The notes below the pieces were generated by a model. It was given only the letters and a program-made list of their open reading frames with translations, had not been told where the DNA came from and ran no database searches. Below are positions 16,561 through 25,856 of a DNA stretch of 64,000 bases, piece after piece. Source of the DNA: Chloracidobacterium thermophilum B (lineage in GTDB: Bacteria > Acidobacteriota > Blastocatellia > Chloracidobacteriales > Chloracidobacteriaceae); NCBI RefSeq assembly GCF_000226295.1, contig NC_016024.1, positions 851,501-915,500 on the forward strand, read 5' to 3'. Every line of letters starts with the position of its first letter. Position 1 is the first letter of the stretch. A program made the translations under genes and the position numbers.

Positions 16561-16797
16561 ATGCAGGAACACTTCCGGGGCCAGCGTCAGCCGACACCTC
16601 ACGTGTGCGCTGACATCTTCCGCTCCGGTTTTCAGAAACCTTGTGCTTCTGAAACGCCAACCGCCGCCACGACACTGGCTTTATATGCCACATGCCGGGC
16701 GGCGGTTGATGTCTGCCGGCGCGGAAGGCTCATCGTAGACGGTTCTGCATCTACAAGTTTATCCGACCATGGAAAAAGCCCCCAGTGGGGGCTTTAG
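16561..16797 (+). CDS. possible small Cys-containing protein near island edge
   Basis: A 78-codon frame after the perfect Shine-Dalgarno, with nine-base spacing from GGAGG. The overlapping ATG at 16557 instead gives an 18-residue peptide, MNAGTLPGPASADTSRVR. The 78-residue product has four cysteines and no recognised domain. Its 3' third includes the left copy of the 32-bp direct repeat, and its stop codon falls at the end of a terminator-like hairpin. It could be a real small gene, a leader peptide, or the start of a gene disrupted by the island. Confidence 0.3.
   Translation: MQEHFRGQRQPTPHVCADIFRSGFQKPCASETPTAATTLALYATCRAAVDVCRRGRLIVDGSASTSLSDHGKSPQWGL
16699..16730 (+). repeat. 32-bp direct repeat, left copy
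   Basis: Identical over 32 bases to 25143-25174 (begins GCGGCGGTTGATG, ends GCGGAAGGCT). Weaker similarity continues for about 20 bases beyond (GACGGTTCTGCAT here versus GACCGTTACGCAT at right). It could be a target-site or att-like duplication, or two members of a dispersed repeat. Confidence 0.9.
16775..16795 (+). terminator. hairpin, probable terminator
   Basis: Perfect 9-bp stem AAAGCCCCC / GGGGGCTTT with loop AGT, with A-rich sequence before it and a short T run in the distal arm. It could work on either strand. It lies just inside the left repeat and would insulate the island from the recF-permease unit. Confidence 0.65.
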
Positions 16798-16950
16798 AGC
16801 AAGACCTACATCCGCCACTATAGACGGGTTTGGACCCGCACAACTACTGTGGTAGATAACTGATACAAAGTCAATCTGGTGAGAAAAACCTTATGCCCAG
16901 TTCCTTCCCAACCGTTCAGGGCGCGTTGAAAGCACTGGGCAAAATGCCTA

Positions 16951-17345
16951 ATGTTAGGACAAAAAACAAAGCTACCTGACAATAACCACACTTCTCCTGA
17001 TGAACTGACGAACATCCTTGAGCACTTGTCTAATGCCGATCCGTGTGTTTAGCCTTTTTGTCTCATGGGTGCTTTGAAGATAGGTTCTGACATCGCGTGT
17101 TTTGCATCGGTACTTGAAATTAGGTGCAATCTACGTTTCTGTCCGGGTAACATGTGCTATGTTGGGCAAGTGTCAAGGTAGATGAGATTCTCGCCGAAGT
17201 CGGACAAAAAGCAGGATATTTGCTTTGTCTCAGCTTGACTGGCGACATCTCCATGGCAACAGTGCCTGACAGATGGTGTGCTTTGAGCACGAATCAGCAA
17301 GAGAGTCTCGTGTTTCTGCAAGAGGCACTTTGTGGATTGGATTGA
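16951..17345 (+). pseudogene. decayed C-terminal part of a DNA methyltransferase
   Basis: Translation gives blocks matching the C-terminal third of the methyltransferase at 23766-25088, in the same order. ELTNILEHLSNADPCV matches RLAKILDLPANADQRV. A segment ending RFCPGNMCYVGQVSR matches RYLKPGGICAFVVGNVRH. VDEILAEVGQKAGY matches VDEILADVGQQAGY (12 of 14 identical). The end SLVFLQEAL matches TVVFLQKVK. An in-frame stop at 17050, small deletions and a frameshift near 17170 break it. Similarity may begin earlier, from about 16800, but is too weak to claim. It is evidently a remnant of a related but not identical copy of the system. Confidence 0.75.
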
Positions 17346-17477
17346 TTGTCAAGGGAATTCTCCCGAAACTGATCTGAGGGAAGCGGAATTGGCATAAAGC
17401 TCAACTCTTACCTACTGCGGGTAACTCTTCCCAGATGTAACGGACCAGATGTACTGAAACCCTGAAGTGGTGCAGAA

Positions 17478-20400
17478 ATGAATAGTTTCGAGAAGTACCA
17501 GGAAATTAGCCAACTTGCCCCAGAGTTTGCGAGCTTTACCAAGCAGGCTGCCCAGAAGGCGCGTAACGAGGCGGAATTTGGACGACAAATGAATAACGAA
17601 ATTGAGCGCTTGGCAAGGCAGTTGGGTACACAATCAGACTTTCGTGAGCAGTACACCCTGGCCACCGGTCGCGCCGATGCGGTCTATAACCGTTTCATTA
17701 TCGAATACAAATCGCCTGGCTCGCTACAGAACAATCTGCGCCACAAGCCTACGGTACGTGCTGTTGGGCAAGTGAAAAAGTACATTAAGGGTTTGGCTGA
17801 AGCCGAGCGCCATGACCGCGATCGCTTGCTGGGCGTGGCCTTCGATGGCATCTACTTCATCTTTGTGCGCTACCATCAAGGGCATTGGATTGTCGAGCCG
17901 CCACTGGAGGTCAACGAGTCTTCCTGCGAGCGTTTTCTGCGCTCGCTATTTTCCCTCTCTTCCGGCCGCGCCCTTATCCCCGAAAACCTGGTCGAGGATT
18001 TCGGCAATCAGAATGTCCTTAGCCAGCAGGTGACCAGCGCCCTCTACTGCGCCTTGGAGCAGCATCCCGACGGGCTGACAGCGCGTCTGTTCAAACAATG
18101 GAAATTATTTTTTGGCGAGACCGCCGGTGCCGATGCTGCCGCCGGCAAAATAGCCCATCGCTCCGAGCTACGTGCATTTCTCAAAGGCATGGGGCTTGAG
18201 CCCGAAAACGCTGACCTGCCACGCTTCTTCTTTGCCCTGCAAACCTATTTTGCCTTTATCGTCAAAAACATCGCCCGCCTGGTGCTCCAGGCATACGCTG
18301 CTGGCGGCCTGGACACCATGCCCCTGACCACTGTTGCTGGGCTGCAGGGCAAAGGGCTGCAGCAGGAACTGCAAAAATTGGAAGAGGGAGATTTTTACCG
18401 GGCTTTGGGTTTGAAGAATCTCCTGGAAGGCGATTTCTTTGCCTGGTATCTGCATGCTTGGGATGCCAACGTGGAGGTCGCGCTGCGCCAGGTGTTGCAG
18501 CGCTTGGCCGAGTACAACCCCGTCACCGTTCAGGATGACCCGCTTTCGGCGCGCGACCTGCTCAAAAAACTTTACCACTACCTCCTGCCGCGCGAGATCC
18601 GCCACGATCTGGGCGAGTTCTACACGCCCGATTGGCTGGCCGAACGCCTGCTCAATCAACTGGGCGAGCCGCTCTTTCAGATGCCCAAACCCGGCGCGTA
18701 CATTCCTACACCCAACAAGCGCCTGCTGGATCCGGCCTGTGGCTCCGGCACGTTTCTCATTCTGGTTGCCCGCGCCCTCAAAGCCAACTGCTTCCAAGCT
18801 AGACTGTCCAAAGCCGACACGCTGGAGGTCATCCTAAGCGGCCTGGCCGGCTTGGACCTGAATCCCTTGGCGGTGATGGCCGCCCGCGTCAATTTCCTGC
18901 TTGCCATCGCCGATCTGCTCCCTTACCGCCGCCGCGAGGTGGAAATCCCCATCTACTTGGCCGATAGCATTCTCACCCCTGTTGAGGGCAAAAAATTCTT
19001 CGACCAGGGCCGCCGCATCCTGGAGACTGCCGTCGGCACCCTGCCCATCCCTGTCGCTATTGACACCCACGCCGAGATGGAATGCCTGACCAATCTGCTC
19101 GAAGAGTACGTACGCGGCGGCTTCGCAACCGAGGCCTTCTTGAAACGCTGCCGCGCCGAATTACCTGACCTGAGCGACCAGGATGAGGCAACATTGCGCG
19201 AACTGTTTGAGACCCTGTGCAACCTGCACCAGCAAGGACTGGACGGCATCTGGGCGCGCGTGGTCAAGAACGCCTTCATGCCACTCTTTTTGAAACCTTT
19301 TGACTACGTGGTTGGCAACCCGCCCTGGATCAACTGGGAGAGTTTGCCGCAGGGGTATCGCCAGCGTGTGGCTCCGCTGTGGCAACAGTACGACCTGTTT
19401 CAGCACAAAGGCTTTGACGCCATCCTGGGAAAGTCGAAAGACGACATTTCAGCACTGATGACGTATGTGGCTGCTGACCGCTACCTGAAACCCGGCGGCA
19501 AGTTGGCTTTTGTCATCACCCAGAGCGTGTGGAAGACCAGCGGTGGCGGACAGGGTTTCCGCCGCTTCCGGCTCCCCCCTCCCAACGGGAGAGGGGCTGG
19601 GGGGAAGGATGTCCATTTGCGTGTGGTACACGTAGATGATCTCAGCCGCCTACAAGTCTTTGAGGGAGCAAGCACGCGCACCAGCGTCTTCGTGCTGCGC
19701 AAAGGCGAGACCACCCGCTATCCCGTTCCCTACACCTACTGGCAGAAAACCAGCCGAGGTCAGAGCCTGGATTACGACAGCACGCTCGACGAAGTGCTGA
19801 AGCAAACCCGCCGCCTGCAATTCCAGGCTGCACCGGTGGACAAGCATGACTCCACCAGCGCTTGGTTGACCGCCCACTGCAAAGCCCTCACAGCCATTCA
19901 AAAGGTACTGGGGCCCTCGGCGTATCAGGCTCGTGCCGGGGTCTGCACTTGGGCCAACGGCATCTACTGGCTGAAGAAAGAAAATGCCCTCCCCTATGGA
20001 CTATGGGTGGTGCGCAACCTGACCAAGGGAGCGAAACGGAAAGTTAAGCCGGTAACGGTGAAACTTGAACCCAACCTGCTCTACCCCTTGCTGCGCGGGC
20101 GGGATGTGCGGCGCTGGCATGCCCAACCATCGGCTTATATCCTGGTAACTCATCTGCCAGACGCTGGACTGAATGCGATTCCTGTCAAGGACTTGCAGAA
20201 CTGCTATCCCAAAACCTGGTCTTACCTGAAAAGCTTTGAAAAAGAACTCCGCGAGCGTTCCGGCTTCAAGCGCTACTTCACCCGTAAGCAGGGCAAACAG
20301 GTAATTGAAACTGGGCCGTTCTACTCCCTCTTCAACATCGGCAAGTACACCTTCGCCCCGTGGAAGGTGGTGTGGCGAGAGCAATCAGCTTGGTTTACTG

Positions 20401-20846
20401 TTGCTGTGGTTAACGAACAGGAGCAAAAGTGTATCGTTCCTGACCACAAACTCATGCTGATAGGCTGCCAAAGCAAGAAAGAAGCCTTTTACCTAGCAGG
20501 TGTTCTGAACAGTGCACCAATAACGTTAGCGGTATGGGCATTCTCAATCTCCATTCAACAGACAACGCATATCACTGATCAAATCGCTGTTCCCCACTTT
20601 GACGCCCAAAACCCTACCCACACCCGCCTGGCGGCGCTCTCTCAGAAAGCGCATCAGATTGCTCCGGAGGTCTATGCTGGCGATGCCAATGCCCAACGCC
20701 GCTTGGCAGCCATCGAGGCCAAGATTGACGGCCTGGCCGCTCAACTGTGGGGACTCACTCAGGCCGAACTGGAGGACATCCGTCGCAACCTGGTCGAACT
20801 CAAAGGCGAGAACTTAGAGGCCACACCTGCTGATGGAGAGGAATGA
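17478..20846 (+). CDS. PD-(D/E)XK nuclease fused to adenine-type DNA methyltransferase (type IIG-like)
   Basis: A 1122-residue protein. The N-terminal 180 residues look like a PD-(D/E)XK nuclease: Asp67 in GRADAV, Glu76-x-Lys78 in FIIEYKSPG, and a QVKKY motif at 98-102, the QxxxY helix of that fold. The middle is a gamma-type N6-adenine methyltransferase: motif X GEFYTP (about 379), motif I LDPACGSGTF (about 416) and motif IV NPPW (about 613). The last 450 residues look like a target-recognition region. This is the layout of single-chain restriction-modification enzymes such as Eco57I/MmeI. A GC-rich repeat-like insert lies at 19572-19611. It is the first gene of a four-gene operon, and the ribosome site before 17478 is weak. 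Confidence 0.85.
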   Translation: MNSFEKYQEISQLAPEFASFTKQAAQKARNEAEFGRQMNNEIERLARQLGTQSDFREQYTLATGRADAVYNRFIIEYKSPGSLQNNLRHKPTVRAVGQVKKYIKGLAEAERHDRDRLLGVAFDGIYFIFVRYHQGHWIVEPPLEVNESSCERFLRSLFSLSSGRALIPENLVEDFGNQNVLSQQVTSALYCALEQHPDGLTARLFKQWKLFFGETAGADAAAGKIAHRSELRAFLKGMGLEPENADLPRFFFALQTYFAFIVKNIARLVLQAYAAGGLDTMPLTTVAGLQGKGLQQELQKLEEGDFYRALGLKNLLEGDFFAWYLHAWDANVEVALRQVLQRLAEYNPVTVQDDPLSARDLLKKLYHYLLPREIRHDLGEFYTPDWLAERLLNQLGEPLFQMPKPGAYIPTPNKRLLDPACGSGTFLILVARALKANCFQARLSKADTLEVILSGLAGLDLNPLAVMAARVNFLLAIADLLPYRRREVEIPIYLADSILTPVEGKKFFDQGRRILETAVGTLPIPVAIDTHAEMECLTNLLEEYVRGGFATEAFLKRCRAELPDLSDQDEATLRELFETLCNLHQQGLDGIWARVVKNAFMPLFLKPFDYVVGNPPWINWESLPQGYRQRVAPLWQQYDLFQHKGFDAILGKSKDDISALMTYVAADRYLKPGGKLAFVITQSVWKTSGGGQGFRRFRLPPPNGRGAGGKDVHLRVVHVDDLSRLQVFEGASTRTSVFVLRKGETTRYPVPYTYWQKTSRGQSLDYDSTLDEVLKQTRRLQFQAAPVDKHDSTSAWLTAHCKALTAIQKVLGPSAYQARAGVCTWANGIYWLKKENALPYGLWVVRNLTKGAKRKVKPVTVKLEPNLLYPLLRGRDVRRWHAQPSAYILVTHLPDAGLNAIPVKDLQNCYPKTWSYLKSFEKELRERSGFKRYFTRKQGKQVIETGPFYSLFNIGKYTFAPWKVVWREQSAWFTVAVVNEQEQKCIVPDHKLMLIGCQSKKEAFYLAGVLNSAPITLAVWAFSISIQQTTHITDQIAVPHFDAQNPTHTRLAALSQKAHQIAPEVYAGDANAQRRLAAIEAKIDGLAAQLWGLTQAELEDIRRNLVELKGENLEATPADGEE
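19572..19611 (+). repeat. GC-rich hairpin repeat inserted in frame
   Basis: About 40 bases containing CTCCC-AAC-GGGAG followed by a run of G. They resemble the short dispersed palindromic repeats common between genes in many bacterial genomes. Here the sequence is read in frame as a Pro/Gly-rich stretch (about residues 697-712) inside the methyltransferase part and interrupts an otherwise conserved-looking region. Confidence 0.6.
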
Positions 20847-20848
20847 AT

Positions 20849-22009
20849 ATGCCCAATCCCTTCGCGCCTTTACAGCCCGCTTTGCGTATCCTGGCTACCG
20901 AGGGGCGCGTTTTGCCTGCTACCGGCCAGGCTATCGTGGATATGGTCTCTCCTGACTTGGAAGAAGCCTATGACCGCGCCACCGGCGGCCCGGGCGAAAA
21001 GGTGACCAAGGTGTGGGAAACACGCCAGGAACTTTATCACCAGGTGAAGCCTATCCACCGCAGTCAAGAACATTGCCTGCGTTATTTTCTCGACGGTTCA
21101 GCCAAAATCTACTTTATCGGCACGTTGCTCGAACATGAACGCTCCAGCCCAGTGCAACTCGGTCAAATCGGTGCGGCGGCAGTCTATCGTGAGGACGATG
21201 GCCGCGTGAGGCGGGCTGCTTTCGAGCACAAAATCTTGCTCTTAATGGACAAGCAGGCCCTTTCCGAGACTTTGTGGAGTGAGGTAGAGAAGGCTATTGC
21301 TGAGCAGGCTATTGCTGGCCATTCTCACCTGCTTCTGCGTTCTACCAACGACAGCCAAGACCGTTTCAGCGAAGCGCTGGGTGTTGTCGAACCCCGGTCC
21401 CGCGGCGCCCATCGCGCCAACTGGGCTATGCGTGAAATGGAGATCGATTTGGCGCGGAATGGCTTACAGCGCAGGGCAGATACGTGGTTGGTGTTGGACG
21501 GCACGCTGGGCACGGAATATATGAATTGGAACGGACCGCCGGTGATTGGTGTGGCCAAGTCTTTCCGCCGCGACACTCAGTTCCACATAAGTGGCCCGCG
21601 TGCCGAGCAAATGAACTTGTATTCCCTGCTTGCTGGATTAGAACTCAATCACCGCACTGCTGTGTTCTCCCGTTGGCCTGGACAGGATCGGGAAGGCGCC
21701 ATCCTGTTCTGGTATGTGCGCATCCGCCCCCAGCGCGGGCTGGACTATCCGCTGATGGGCGTGGTGAAAGTCGAGTGGCCCAATCCGAGCCGCAATCCGA
21801 GCCGCGAACCCATAGACAGCGACTTGGCTGACCAGATCAGCGGCTGGCTGATCGCCGAACGCTGTGTCACCCCACACGGGCGAGATAACCGCTGGCACGC
21901 CCATCTGTACGCGATCAGCCTGGCTGAACGAGTTATCAAGGATCGTTTCTACTCGGAAGAAGTTCTCAAAGCTGCTATCCGCTGGCCGCAGGCGGGTGCA
22001 CAAATCTAA
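20849..22009 (+). CDS. nurA: NurA-domain nuclease
   Basis: A 386-residue protein with NurA-family motifs: FLDGS at 80-84 (metal-binding Asp82), a second acidic block WLVLDGTL with Asp217, and VIGVAKSF at 232-239 with Lys237. NurA is an RNase-H-like 5'-3' nuclease that resects DNA ends together with the HerA translocase, best known in archaea. The ATG at 20849, seven bases after GGAGAGG and two bases after the upstream stop, is preferred to the ATG at 20843, which is too close to that site. The adjacency to a HerA gene strongly supports the call. Confidence 0.8.
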   Translation: MPNPFAPLQPALRILATEGRVLPATGQAIVDMVSPDLEEAYDRATGGPGEKVTKVWETRQELYHQVKPIHRSQEHCLRYFLDGSAKIYFIGTLLEHERSSPVQLGQIGAAAVYREDDGRVRRAAFEHKILLLMDKQALSETLWSEVEKAIAEQAIAGHSHLLLRSTNDSQDRFSEALGVVEPRSRGAHRANWAMREMEIDLARNGLQRRADTWLVLDGTLGTEYMNWNGPPVIGVAKSFRRDTQFHISGPRAEQMNLYSLLAGLELNHRTAVFSRWPGQDREGAILFWYVRIRPQRGLDYPLMGVVKVEWPNPSRNPSREPIDSDLADQISGWLIAERCVTPHGRDNRWHAHLYAISLAERVIKDRFYSEEVLKAAIRWPQAGAQI

Positions 22010-22026
22010 TGTTTGGAAGGAATACG

Positions 22027-23769
22027 ATGGCCTCAGAGAACCCGCAAATTACTCACTCGGATTCACCAGCCGACGCCATTGGCCGTGCTTCGGCCACCGA
22101 ACGCGAACCGAACACAGCCGATCGCTTTTCGTTCTGGATTCGCCCAAGTGCGCGCTTGAATCCTTTTGACATCGTCGCTGCTGAGCATCTGGAGGGCAGT
22201 CACACCTATGGGTTGGTCACCAACATTCGCCACGTCACCGACGCCGCCGGTCATCTTTCCAACTTTATTTCCAACGACTTCGGCGAACTGGTGGAGGAAC
22301 CCAATACCCCGCGCCAAGGTGCTAATGTGGCTGATGTCTCAGTTCTCTCGAACGACAAAGAGATTTACATGCCCGTCCAGAGTGAAGCGCGCGTCCGCTT
22401 TGCCGATGAAGCCGGCATCCACAATGCCTTGGGCATAGACAGTATGGCCGAGAAAGAACAGCGCGAGAGGCGTCGTGTGCGCATCCCGGCCGGCCTGATT
22501 CAAATGAGCAATGGTTCCGAGGCCGTTGCGTATCTGGATGTGGATTACGTCCTGGGGCCGGAAGCCGGGCACGTGAATATCAGCGGCATTTCTGGCTTGG
22601 CCACCAAAACCTCATACATCACTTTTCTCATACAATCCATTTTGCAGACTGTTTCAGCAGAAAACATCGCCGTTATTTTGCTCAACGTTAAGTATGATGA
22701 CTTGCTCCACATTCACGAGGCACGCACTCTGACGGAAGATGAAGAGTCTTTATGGAAGAAGATGGGCCTGCGGTCAGAGACATGGCAGCCTGATCATGTC
22801 CACTACCTGTTGCCTTGGAGCCAAACCACAGGCCGCCCGAACAGTTTTGGGGAGAGTATTCCGCCGCATAGAACCTATGCCTACGATTTGAAGACCACTG
22901 CCCCCAAATTGGATTTGCTGCTCTCCCATGTACCCGATCCATGGGATACGCTGGGTGCACTTATCGGTGAGGTCAGTCAGGGATTGCAGAGCAACGAGCC
23001 TAAGTGGCGGGAGATCGAAACCTGGCAGGACTTGCTTTCCAAACCGCCGCTTTCGGAGAATGGAACGCCAAAATCATTCAAGAACATAACCGCCTCTTCT
23101 GTTGGCCGCTTTCTACGCCTGTTGGGTCGCGCCGTGCAGACCCGCCAGAGTGGCGTGTTTGTGTCTGATCTGGAGAGGATGAAGGTGGAAACCAGCGGCA
23201 CATCCACACTTAGTACGGACATGACCACTATTGAGGCTGGAATTGGCAAAATCAAGGGCGGTCATACTTACGTTGTGGACATTGCCCGTCTGACCGATGT
23301 CGAGCAAACCCTGGTCTTTGGGGATGTGCTACGCACTGTGTACGCCCTTTATTCCGGCGAAACGGGATTGGCAAGGAAAGATAAGTTGCCGGAAAAGGTT
23401 ATCATCTTTGTGGATGAATTGAACAAATACGCTCCTAGCCGGGGCGAAGCTGCCAATTCACCGATTGTGGAGCAGGTTTTGGACATCGCCGAGCGCGGAC
23501 GTTCCTTTGGCATCATCCTGTTCTCAGCGCAGCAATTCCTGAGTGCTGTCCATCCGCGTGTGACCGGCAACGCCGCAACCAAAGTCTTGGGCCGCACTGA
23601 CAGCGCCGAGGTCAACGAAGGCAACTATCGTTTTCTGGATAAGGACATCAAGATGCACCTGACCCGGCTGGATAAAGGAGAACTGATCCTGTCGCATCCG
23701 ATCTACCGTCAGCCAGTCAAAATCCGCTTCCCGCGCCCGCCCTTCCAACAGGGTCGTGTGAAGAAATGA
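22027..23769 (+). CDS. herA: HerA/FtsK-superfamily ATPase
   Basis: A 580-residue protein with a beta-rich N-terminal region (HAS-barrel-like, about 45-180) and a RecA-type ATPase. Walker A is atypical: ISGISGLATKTS (185-196, Lys194), with Thr in place of the usual Gly before the Lys. Walker B is IIFVDELN with Asp463-Glu464. A downstream SAQQF motif probably forms sensor 1. The start at 22027 follows GGAAGGA at ideal spacing; an ATG at 22009 overlapping the nurA stop is possible. HerA proteins form hexameric rings that pump DNA and stimulate NurA. In this operon it probably translocates on DNA for the restriction step. Confidence 0.82.
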   Translation: MASENPQITHSDSPADAIGRASATEREPNTADRFSFWIRPSARLNPFDIVAAEHLEGSHTYGLVTNIRHVTDAAGHLSNFISNDFGELVEEPNTPRQGANVADVSVLSNDKEIYMPVQSEARVRFADEAGIHNALGIDSMAEKEQRERRRVRIPAGLIQMSNGSEAVAYLDVDYVLGPEAGHVNISGISGLATKTSYITFLIQSILQTVSAENIAVILLNVKYDDLLHIHEARTLTEDEESLWKKMGLRSETWQPDHVHYLLPWSQTTGRPNSFGESIPPHRTYAYDLKTTAPKLDLLLSHVPDPWDTLGALIGEVSQGLQSNEPKWREIETWQDLLSKPPLSENGTPKSFKNITASSVGRFLRLLGRAVQTRQSGVFVSDLERMKVETSGTSTLSTDMTTIEAGIGKIKGGHTYVVDIARLTDVEQTLVFGDVLRTVYALYSGETGLARKDKLPEKVIIFVDELNKYAPSRGEAANSPIVEQVLDIAERGRSFGIILFSAQQFLSAVHPRVTGNAATKVLGRTDSAEVNEGNYRFLDKDIKMHLTRLDKGELILSHPIYRQPVKIRFPRPPFQQGRVKK

Positions 23770-25088
23770 GAGCAAGCGACCTGCCGCCTCTGCCAGAAGG
23801 CTTTGAGTACCGCTTGAACCTCAAGCACCATGTCACGCCACGCTTGCTGCGCAATCAGCCTATCCATCGCTGGTTCTGGTTTCCGCACAGTTTCTCTCCC
23901 CAACTGATCGATGAAATTCTGTGCGCCTTCCCAGTAGCCGCTGGCGGACGCATCTTCGATCCCTTCCTCGGAGCCGGCACAACCGTCCTGCGTGCCTTGG
24001 AATTAGGCTATGCTGCCACAGGCAGCGATCTATCGCCACTCAGCCTGTTTGTCAGCCAAGTCAAACTGGCGAACTACGACGGAGTAATGCTCCGGGAATG
24101 TCTGGAAACCATTCTGAACCACTACCACCCATCCTATGGAAATAGCAAAGTGCCTGAGCGTATCCGCAAAGCCTTCACCCCTGGTGAACTGGCTCATCTC
24201 AACGGCCTCCGTCAACAGATAGATACTGCTCCCCAACCGGCGCTGGACTTCTTCCGATTGGCACTTTTGCGCGTTCAGCAAGGCATCAGCCGTGCTTGTC
24301 CCGATGGCGGCTGGTTTCGATGGGTGCCAAGGGAAGATCAGAGCCAGCTCATCAAGCATCTTTTTGCTCAACAAGCCAATATGCAAATTGCAGATGCGAA
24401 GTCAGTCCGATTTCCCCCTTTTCAAATTCTACTTAGTGATGTGCGCCAGCTAGAAAATCTTCAAGGAATCTGTGATTTGGTGATCACATCTCCTCCGTAT
24501 CCCAATCGACACGATTACTCGCGCATCTTTCACATTGAACTTTTATCGTTGGGCATCTCTGAACGTGAGGTGACTGAACTTCGTCGCACATCTATTCGAT
24601 CACATGTAGAAGCAGAAGCACCGCCGTTGAACGCCGATGGCTATGTTATCCCATCGAGGTTGGCCAAAATCTTGGATTTACCGGCCAATGCCGATCAGCG
24701 GGTGGTTCCACTGATAAAGGGATATTTTGAGGACCTGTATTTGACCCTAAGATCAATCAGCCGTTATTTGAAGCCTGGGGGAATATGTGCCTTCGTTGTT
24801 GGGAATGTACGCCATGCTGGGGTGATGGTACCAGTAGATGAAATTCTTGCCGATGTGGGGCAGCAGGCTGGATATAGGTTTATCACTGCCTGGGTTGCCA
24901 GGCTTCGCGGAAATAGTGCCCAACAGATGGGACGCTTTGGACGTGAGCTGTCAAGAGAGACCGTAGTGTTTTTACAGAAAGTGAAAACTACAACTTCCCG
25001 TCTCAAACAGCGCCTTCCGCTGTCTTCTCATCTAGCACTTGAAAAAAACAACCTTTCTACATCAGGGGACCAGACCAATGCTTTGTGA
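23766..25088 (+). CDS. stand-alone DNA methyltransferase (N4-cytosine/N6-adenine type)
   Basis: A 440-residue protein. Motif I is FDPFLGAGTT (64-73) and motif IV is TSPPY (241-245), so the SAM-binding block comes first, unlike the beta-class order. TSPPY motifs are commonest in N4-cytosine enzymes but also occur in N6-adenine enzymes. The C-terminal block YLKPGGICAFVVGNV is typical of class I methyltransferases. Its ATGA overlap with the herA stop shows coupling. It may protect host DNA at a second site or strand for the restriction system. A decayed relative lies at 16951-17345. Confidence 0.85.
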   Translation: MRASDLPPLPEGFEYRLNLKHHVTPRLLRNQPIHRWFWFPHSFSPQLIDEILCAFPVAAGGRIFDPFLGAGTTVLRALELGYAATGSDLSPLSLFVSQVKLANYDGVMLRECLETILNHYHPSYGNSKVPERIRKAFTPGELAHLNGLRQQIDTAPQPALDFFRLALLRVQQGISRACPDGGWFRWVPREDQSQLIKHLFAQQANMQIADAKSVRFPPFQILLSDVRQLENLQGICDLVITSPPYPNRHDYSRIFHIELLSLGISEREVTELRRTSIRSHVEAEAPPLNADGYVIPSRLAKILDLPANADQRVVPLIKGYFEDLYLTLRSISRYLKPGGICAFVVGNVRHAGVMVPVDEILADVGQQAGYRFITAWVARLRGNSAQQMGRFGRELSRETVVFLQKVKTTTSRLKQRLPLSSHLALEKNNLSTSGDQTNAL

Positions 25089-25142
25089 TATTTGTCCAAT
25101 CCACTTTTGTAATGCGTTGGATTTTCTGCCGTAACCAGTTTT

Positions 25143-25174
25143 GCGGCGGTTGATGTCTGCCGGCGCGGAAGGCT
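25143..25174 (+). repeat. 32-bp direct repeat, right copy
   Basis: Perfect copy of 16699-16730, 8444 bp away in the same orientation. It lies 54 bp after the last methyltransferase stop and 52 bp before the 3' end of the converging gene at 25227. Confidence 0.9.
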
Positions 25175-25226
25175 GAATCTACAGACCGTTACGCATTCAC
25201 CCACGTCACCCACGCCGGGCCGGGGG

Positions 25227-25856
25227 TCAGTGATGAAGCGACTCGTGCGGTTCCTGGCTGTAGTGAGCCGCCAGATCGGCCGGAGCCGGTTCGCCCAGAA
25301 AGATTTCCCGCAGCTTGTGCCAGAGCGCCAGCCGGTTCCAGTCCGGCGTTTGGCGGACCTTCATCTCATCCGTCAGATAGGGATTGGGCAGAAAGACCGT
25401 CGTCATCTGCTCGCCCGCGCCGTTCCACAGGCGCAGGCCCCAGCTCCGCCCGCCGCCACAACGCTGCCCACGCTGTAAAAAGAAGGCTATTTTGGAAACC
25501 TGCCGCTGCCGGGCCACTTCGGGCGTCGGCGCCTGCCGGTGAATGCCGGTGCACAGGTGAAAGTGCCAGTAACCCAAATCCACCGTGAGGTAGCCGTCGA
25601 GAAATGTCACTTTGGGCGCTTTCTCAAAGCGGATTTCAAAAACCGCGCCCTCGATGCACGGCCCGACCACGATGTCCCGCCAGTGTTCTTTGAAAAGCAC
25701 GTCGGTCAGGCGTTCCATGGTCGCCGGGCTGGCGTCGAAGTAGTCGTATTCAAGGGTTCTACCGCCGGGCAGGGCGATGACTTCCCGTACCAGACAGCGG
25801 GGCGAAGGAGTAGCGGCAGTTTCGGATACAACATCGGGCAGGGTGACAACGGTCAT
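25227..25856 (-). CDS. conserved protein of unknown function with HFHLC motif
   Basis: A 209-residue soluble protein from the ATG at 25856, which has GGAG about ten bases before it. It contains EYDYFDASPATMERL, a WHFHLCTGIH segment with His/Cys spacing that could bind metal, and a Gly/Trp-rich block SWGLRLWNGAGEQMTT. From memory, similar proteins of about 200 residues are annotated as hypothetical in cyanobacteria and other phototrophs, but I cannot confirm this. The gene converges on the island's last methyltransferase and is divergent from the polymerase delta-prime gene across 182 bp. No function is proposed. Confidence 0.7.
   Translation of the reverse strand: MTVVTLPDVVSETAATPSPRCLVREVIALPGGRTLEYDYFDASPATMERLTDVLFKEHWRDIVVGPCIEGAVFEIRFEKAPKVTFLDGYLTVDLGYWHFHLCTGIHRQAPTPEVARQRQVSKIAFFLQRGQRCGGGRSWGLRLWNGAGEQMTTVFLPNPYLTDEMKVRQTPDWNRLALWHKLREIFLGEPAPADLAAHYSQEPHESLHH

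Follow-up and report, generated by a model that had tools for sequence, protein, structure and literature searches.

The window analyzed here, a stretch of 64,000 nt from Chloracidobacterium thermophilum B (NC_016024.1, positions 851,501 to 915,500), contains an operon of four plus-strand genes, designated A to D, that is almost certainly a tdtA operon, to judge from its gene families and their order. This operon is already known from Thermus, where it resides on the integrative and conjugative element (ICE) ICEth1. A tdtA-type operon carried on a small mobile island is probably the best overall explanation of the observations described below. The new elements are the repeat-bounded island, which has no integrase and includes a relic, the mosaic of A + D and B + C, the constancy of the B-C pair in 54 of 54 loci, and the extra genes at the A-B junction.

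Gene A (17478–20846) encodes a type IIG restriction endonuclease-methyltransferase similar to TspDTI/Tth111II (1,122 amino acids, aa), gene B (20843–22009) a NurA-like nuclease (388 aa), gene C (22009–23769) an ATPase with a HerA/TdtA-like fold (586 aa), and gene D (23766–25088) a DNA amino-methyltransferase (440 aa). With the first starts of the open reading frames (ORFs), the A-B, B-C and C-D junctions overlap by 4, 1 and 4 bases, respectively. The original prediction, made from the sequence, had described four closely packed co-directional genes for a nuclease-methyltransferase fusion, NurA, HerA and a second methyltransferase, forming one unit. The four ORFs are indeed intact, all three junctions overlap, family, profile and fold evidence matches the parts list, and the unity of the set is supported by related loci, in which B adjoins C in all 54 cases and A is present in 43. 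The gaps of 2 and 17 bases that were also predicted appear only if translation is taken to begin at the Met residues of codon 3 in B and codon 7 in C; the first starts yield overlaps.

Protein A was recognized as a type IIG restriction-modification (R-M) enzyme by PADLOC (PDLC03630, 1479 bits, residues 12–1110) and by the Pfam families N6_Mtase and Eco57I. Its motifs include the nuclease residues Asp67-Glu76-Lys78, the S-adenosylmethionine (SAM) motif DPACGSG (418), NPPW (614) and a C-terminal target recognition domain (TRD). Conservation was counted in alignments of full-length family members, with the window proteins included. For A, the nuclease Asp and Glu as well as NPPW are kept in 39 of 39 aligned members, and the third nuclease position is Lys in 15 and Glu in 24 of them, the window enzyme having Lys, that is, the D-ExK form. 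The C-terminal part diverges strongly between some relatives. An N-terminal D-ExE/K nuclease, DPACGSG, NPPW and a C-terminal TRD in a single chain of about 1,100 aa are the hallmarks of the TspDTI type, and all of them are found in A.

Searches of Pfam, PADLOC and NCBIfam gave no match for protein B at E ≤ 0.1. A profile of its family (47 sequences) retrieved Deinococcus radiodurans NurA (7f6d) with an E-value of 1.2e-5, and 7f6d was also the single PDB match below E 0.001 of the AlphaFold model (E 1.4e-12, template modelling score 0.51/0.58, root mean square deviation 6.9), which has a predicted local distance difference test (pLDDT) score of 91. Asp84 (YFLDGS) and Asp219 (LDGT) each occur in 56 of the 57 family members aligned; the exceptions are L056, with Ala in place of the first Asp, and L097, in which the second is absent at that place of the alignment. 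At the level of the encoded residues, the nuclease and methyltransferase motifs of A are intact and the conserved aspartates of B are present. Protein C has no Pfam match, and its HerA-type matches in PADLOC and NCBIfam are weak. Its family profile, however, retrieved D. radiodurans HerA with an E-value of 2.7e-63, and the AlphaFold model (pLDDT 84) matched HerA 7wrw at E 8.9e-41. Walker A is the atypical GISGLATKTS (193), constant across the family save for its seventh residue, and Walker B is IIFVDELNKY (465); the P-loop Lys and the Walker B Asp-Glu are kept in 58 of 58 aligned members. The predicted HAS-barrel/RecA fold together with the two Walker motifs is what characterizes HerA, and the modelled fold and Walker motifs would also suit a putative HerA/FtsK-type hexameric ATPase such as TdtA. 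By profile and predicted fold, B and C are the counterparts of both partners of the solved D. radiodurans HerA-NurA complex. Protein D matches N6_N4_Mtase in Pfam and MTase_II in PADLOC, and contains DPFLGAGTT (65) followed by TSPPYPNRHDY (241), with SPPY kept in 28 of 28 aligned members. The TSPPY motif is usually tied to N4-cytosine methylation, and the weak PDB matches of D include two N4-cytosine enzymes (E ~0.01).

The tdtA operon of ICEth1 consists of these same genes, arranged in this order. As described in the available parts of PMC5365140, TTC1877 (Tth111II), TTC1878 (NurA-like), TTC1879 (TdtA) and TTC1880 (an N4/N6 methylase) constitute one operon on ICEth1 in Thermus thermophilus HB27, and the products of A (Tth111II/TthHB27I), B and C serve DNA donation in "transjugation". 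Donation is abolished by the loss of TdtA, drops by 4–5 orders of magnitude without the NurA-like protein and by about 3 without the type IIG enzyme. The same source counts C. thermophilum B among the organisms with tdtA-like clusters, its protein WP_014099240.1 being 66% identical to Tth111II, and its S1 Fig legend puts Chloracidobacterium first among the TdtA homologues. Compared with this published description, the window operon has the same succession of type IIG R-M enzyme, NurA, TdtA and methylase, in one direction and closely spaced. The original prediction had considered the set unnamed and perhaps undescribed, which the published operon rules out (PMC5365140, PMC7767461). It had also named a match to a fully characterized system as the finding that would count against it, and tdtA largely provides this match, with the reservation that tdtA has been characterized for DNA transfer and not for defence. 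In the available text of the two Thermus papers (PMC5365140, PMC7767461), "phage" occurs two times and one time, respectively, never as a phage test, and the open-access literature searched yielded neither a phage test nor a wide survey of the A-B-C-D set.

On sequence grounds, the operon is an 8.4-kb mobile island that was inserted as one unit between 32-bp direct repeats. In the whole genome (3,695,372 bases on two contigs of 2,683,362 and 1,012,010), a 29-bp repeat core was found at exactly two places, with up to 3 mismatches allowed, and these two places flank the operon. The core extends to a 32-bp direct repeat on the plus strand with identical left (attL-like, 16699–16730) and right (attR-like, 25143–25174) copies. 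In the congener G157, the site is empty: the flanks, with 96% identity, are separated by no more than a single repeat copy with 5 differences, so that direct repeats bound a segment missing from a relative, as in an ICE. Four more congeners (G096, G396, G397, G398) match the flanks, none of them with a close A; G399 was uninformative for this comparison. Of the 7 genomes compared in the genus, that of the window included, 2 have a close A, the second being G157, where it lies at another genomic place and without D. The GC content of the island is 54.6%, compared with 60.6% for the window, and equals the lowest among the 8.4-kb stretches sampled. The 5' part of the island holds two plus-strand relics that match the related locus L052 in the same order and strand. 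The first (16759–16944), detected by blastn and alignment, is 75% identical to a stretch of L052 that lies after A and a 239-aa ORF. The second (17178–17345) is what is left, in decayed form, of the 3' end of an older methyltransferase gene of the D type (DNA match 17178–17305, frame readable to about 17345), with 72% DNA identity to the 3' end of the L052 D gene and 69% to the window's own D. We infer that this part of the island probably contains the decayed remains of an earlier operon of the same type.

The stretch 16759–16944 is hairpin-rich and non-coding, with a fold z-score of −2.1 for 16755–16950, and L052 was its sole match among the loci compared. A scan of the island for known RNAs gave one match, Phe_leader on the minus strand, which scored 23.5 bits (E 2.4) where the gathering score is 55, and the island was accordingly dropped as the host of a known RNA. 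A scan for sigma-70 promoters from 16600 to 25300 found no plus-strand site and a single minus-strand site, inside A.

The operon is a mosaic. The residues that the window proteins share with only L052 or with only L044 number 156:22 for A, 11:106 for B, 8:111 for C and 71:29 for D. Therefore, the outer pair A + D, nearest to L052, and the inner pair B + C, nearest to L044, have different histories in the window operon. In 19 complete systems, D correlates with A when C is controlled for (partial rank correlation 0.53; Mantel p 0.0005, although such partial tests may err on the liberal side) but shows no such correlation with C when A is controlled for (partial −0.07). The original prediction that the extra methyltransferase marks self finds support in the co-tracking of A and D and in their split from B-C, which favor D as the partner methyltransferase of A. 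The A-D link, as read from these comparisons, is one at the gene level only: a specificity signal common to D and the TRD of A, beyond that of the A body, was rejected (partial 0.185), since the values for B (0.201) and C (0.337) were no lower.

A pattern-based scan of 84,980 species, with one genome per species, gave 61 loci. The tdtA clade was defined as 54 loci, namely 53 of these 61 (7 distant-clade loci were set apart and L051 was dropped as a near copy) plus the viral-collection contig L105. In addition to the constant B-C pair and the 43 A genes, D is found in 27 loci; the gene sets are ABC in 22, ABCD in 21, BCD in 6 and BC in 5. Among the 11 loci without A, five (L054, L055, L056, L086, L104) have room for A in the available stretch. 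The D-less members form one group in the C tree (support 97/95). Thus far the names in the clade span about 15 phylum labels, many of them of metagenome bins, some perhaps mis-binned, as is possible for the "Clostridiales" bin L075, which is almost identical to Thermus L074. Among 396 genomes of Acidobacteriota, the phylum to which the window belongs, any C match occurs in 17, a close C in 4, and a full-length A at ≥45% identity also in 4 (G000, G157, G224, G307). Neither B nor C accompanies the A of G307 in the 5.7 kb examined, and this genome has no close C, so that A was rejected as an obligate partner of B-C. More distant A relatives (~30%) occur on plasmids, and no record was found in common with C among 20 of 37 records.

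Extra ORFs lie in the A-B gap in 10 of the 40 loci where A and B were both called as ORFs. L044 carries an IS200-like transposase gene there; among the gap ORFs of other loci, which were scanned only in part, there are an AAA ATPase of the HEC-01/AriA type (E 4e-41), accompanied by a DUF4276 match that falls short of the Pfam cut-off, a BrxD-like ATPase with a weak match (E 1.3e-5), a weak HEPN-like match (PDC-M05B, E 1e-4) and an ImmA/IrrE-type gene. At L056 (8847–9944), the NurA with the Asp-to-Ala exchange has an AAA-DUF4276-like pair upstream, and no restriction enzyme was found in the available stretch. L105 is a full A-B-C-D operon near RusA-like and replication-initiation genes.

The division of labor in which A cuts, B-C act at the ends and D protects is a likely one. 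A would nick or cut those of its sites that lack methylation wholly or in part, a NurA-HerA ring would load on the ends made by A and pump and trim the DNA, and D, by methylating either the partner strand or else a linked site, would largely spare resident DNA. In Thermus, the experimentally established output is DNA pushed out to recipient cells (PMC5365140), and the enzyme cuts were proposed as origins of transfer (PMC7767461). In Chloracidobacterium, this chemistry is most likely put to use either for donation or for the destruction of unmodified DNA, and donation may be its main role, a proposal that we take seriously but stop short of favoring. The window genome encodes ComEC and two secretins, the equipment that recipients in transjugation would need. 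A broader view, which we offer only tentatively and consider rather doubtful, is that the tdtA operon is a general machine, spread over the ~15 phylum labels, that would turn restriction cuts into DNA pumping by a swappable NurA-HerA core inside a swappable R-M pair, destroying unmodified DNA and exporting host DNA, with the A-B junction as a cargo slot for defence genes.

Several observations weigh against a tdtA-type operon on a mobile island with the functions proposed above. The ORF list contains no integrase between the repeats and no tRNA was found in the 64-kb window, unlike in ICEth1. The P-loop of C deviates from the classical form. Given D, A also tracks C (partial 0.61) and B (0.77) in the 19 complete systems; therefore, the two modules are not fully independent. 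Because D was not seen in 27 of the 54 relatives (some contigs end there) and the effects of the Thermus methylase mutant, as given in the available parts of PMC7767461, are minor, D is not essential to the core. ComEC and the secretins discriminate little, since they are common in control genomes (10 of 14 and 6 of 14, respectively). Finally, among 83 neighbor ORFs scanned of the 232 listed, one matched a phage integrase and three matched AAA_21 (among the 25 of 94 families listed), so that most copies are not plainly ICEs; a tyrosine-integrase regular expression over the called ORFs, a crude test, picked out only L045 among the 54 loci and L106 in the distant clade.

Phage defence by a tdtA-type operon is possible. 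As an anti-phage system, A would restrict unmodified invaders, NurA-HerA would degrade them from the cuts, D would protect self, and donation in Thermus would be a by-product of self-cutting. We consider this plausible but not probable, on contextual evidence: A and D seem to behave like an R-M pair in the window lineage, as suggested by their co-tracking and the mosaic, the A-B gap extras include the defence-like genes listed above, the L105 copy lies on a viral-collection contig with phage replication genes, and HerA ATPases are active in Nezha and DUF4297-HerA defence. However, the sole tested relatives, those in Thermus, act in DNA donation, the C model is closer to D. radiodurans HerA (E 8.9e-41) than to the defence HerAs (DUF4297-HerA, E 9.2e-20), and no defence family is frequent in the 83 scanned neighbors (at most 3 members, among the 25 of 62 PADLOC families listed).

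The repeat-bounded insertion, its low GC content, the older-copy relic alongside, and the patchy occurrence both in the genus (2 of 7 genomes with a close A, at two different places) and over ~15 phylum labels all speak for a selfish mobile R-M island, in which NurA-HerA would mainly aid its own spread, with small benefit to the host. Such an island appears unlikely, given that no mobilization gene lies inside and that the conservation of gene order across great distances points to a biochemical task performed jointly. Moreover, the flanks of 33 relatives, examined to a distance of 3.5 kb, revealed no comparable repeat: the longest common string was 18 bp, against maxima of up to 16 bp in the shuffled controls for the rows listed, and flanking repeats were rejected as a general mark of these loci. 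That B-C is a DNA-repair pair for end resection, as in archaea and Deinococcus, and a mere neighbor of an R-M system, is very improbable. The nearest folds are those of D. radiodurans HerA and NurA, but the distribution within the genus is patchy, with a close C in 2 of the 3 genomes that were sampled and a close A in 2 of 7, the pair lies on an island, A is present in 43 of 54 loci, and the Thermus TdtA mutant showed no difference under heat shock and a marginal one under ultraviolet light in the available parts of PMC5365140. A tdtA-type operon on a mobile island is the reading that we retain. With it, the supposed "undescribed defence system" falls away, and two literatures that had been separate, on Thermus DNA donation and on HerA-NurA/R-M biology, are brought together; owing to the wide spread, the A + D / B + C mosaic and the A-B cargo slot, one can test directly whether a single operon does transfer, defence or both.

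NurA-HerA pairs and relatives of C were also seen in other settings. In the distant clade (L032, L090–L095, L101, L106; 8 loci clustered, plus L032), NurA and HerA are followed by a GHKL/Hsp90-like ATPase and a B12/radical-SAM-like protein, the last two labels being by-eye readings of the sequence; we know of no name for this set. Plasmid relatives of C (L040–L043; Streptomyces, Chlorohelix and two cyanobacteria) lie beside SbcD/exonuclease and SbcC/SMC-type genes, and Marinitoga camini virus 1 (L038, 6957–9665) has a NurA-HerA pair in a phage record with no restriction enzyme annotated beside the pair.

Compared with known systems, the window B-C pair has both folds and the gene pair in common with the HerA-NurA of D. 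radiodurans and archaea, whose role is DNA repair, but is mobile, tied to a restriction enzyme and equipped with the P-loop GISGLATKTS. Nezha (SIR2-HerA) and DUF4297-HerA likewise combine a HerA-type ATPase with a partner; in the window, however, the partner is, by profile and fold, NurA, joined by a type IIG enzyme, instead of SIR2 or DUF4297, and the fold match is weaker, so that membership in these systems was rejected. BREX, DISARM and MADS were rejected as well, since the operon proteins give partial matches to single models, with NCBIfam scores far under the cut-offs, and neighboring window genes were read only as ORFs in this check. Protein A shares length, domain layout, DPACGSG, NPPW and D-ExK/E with the TspDTI subfamily of type IIC/IIG enzymes (TspDTI, Tth111II/TthHB27I, TsoI); both the D-ExK and D-ExE forms are described among TspDTI relatives in the available parts of PMC3384240, the window enzyme having the former and the Thermus enzymes the latter. 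The closest counterpart is the tdtA operon of ICEth1, with the same four families, order and direction and with the methylase last and overlapping in both. ICEth1 and the window island are alike as repeat-bounded, low-GC insertions missing from a close relative, but ICEth1 spans 14.9 kb, with 47-bp repeats that match a tRNA-Ile end and a XerC-type integrase, whereas the window island spans 8.4 kb between 32-bp repeats, with no integrase and no tRNA in the window.

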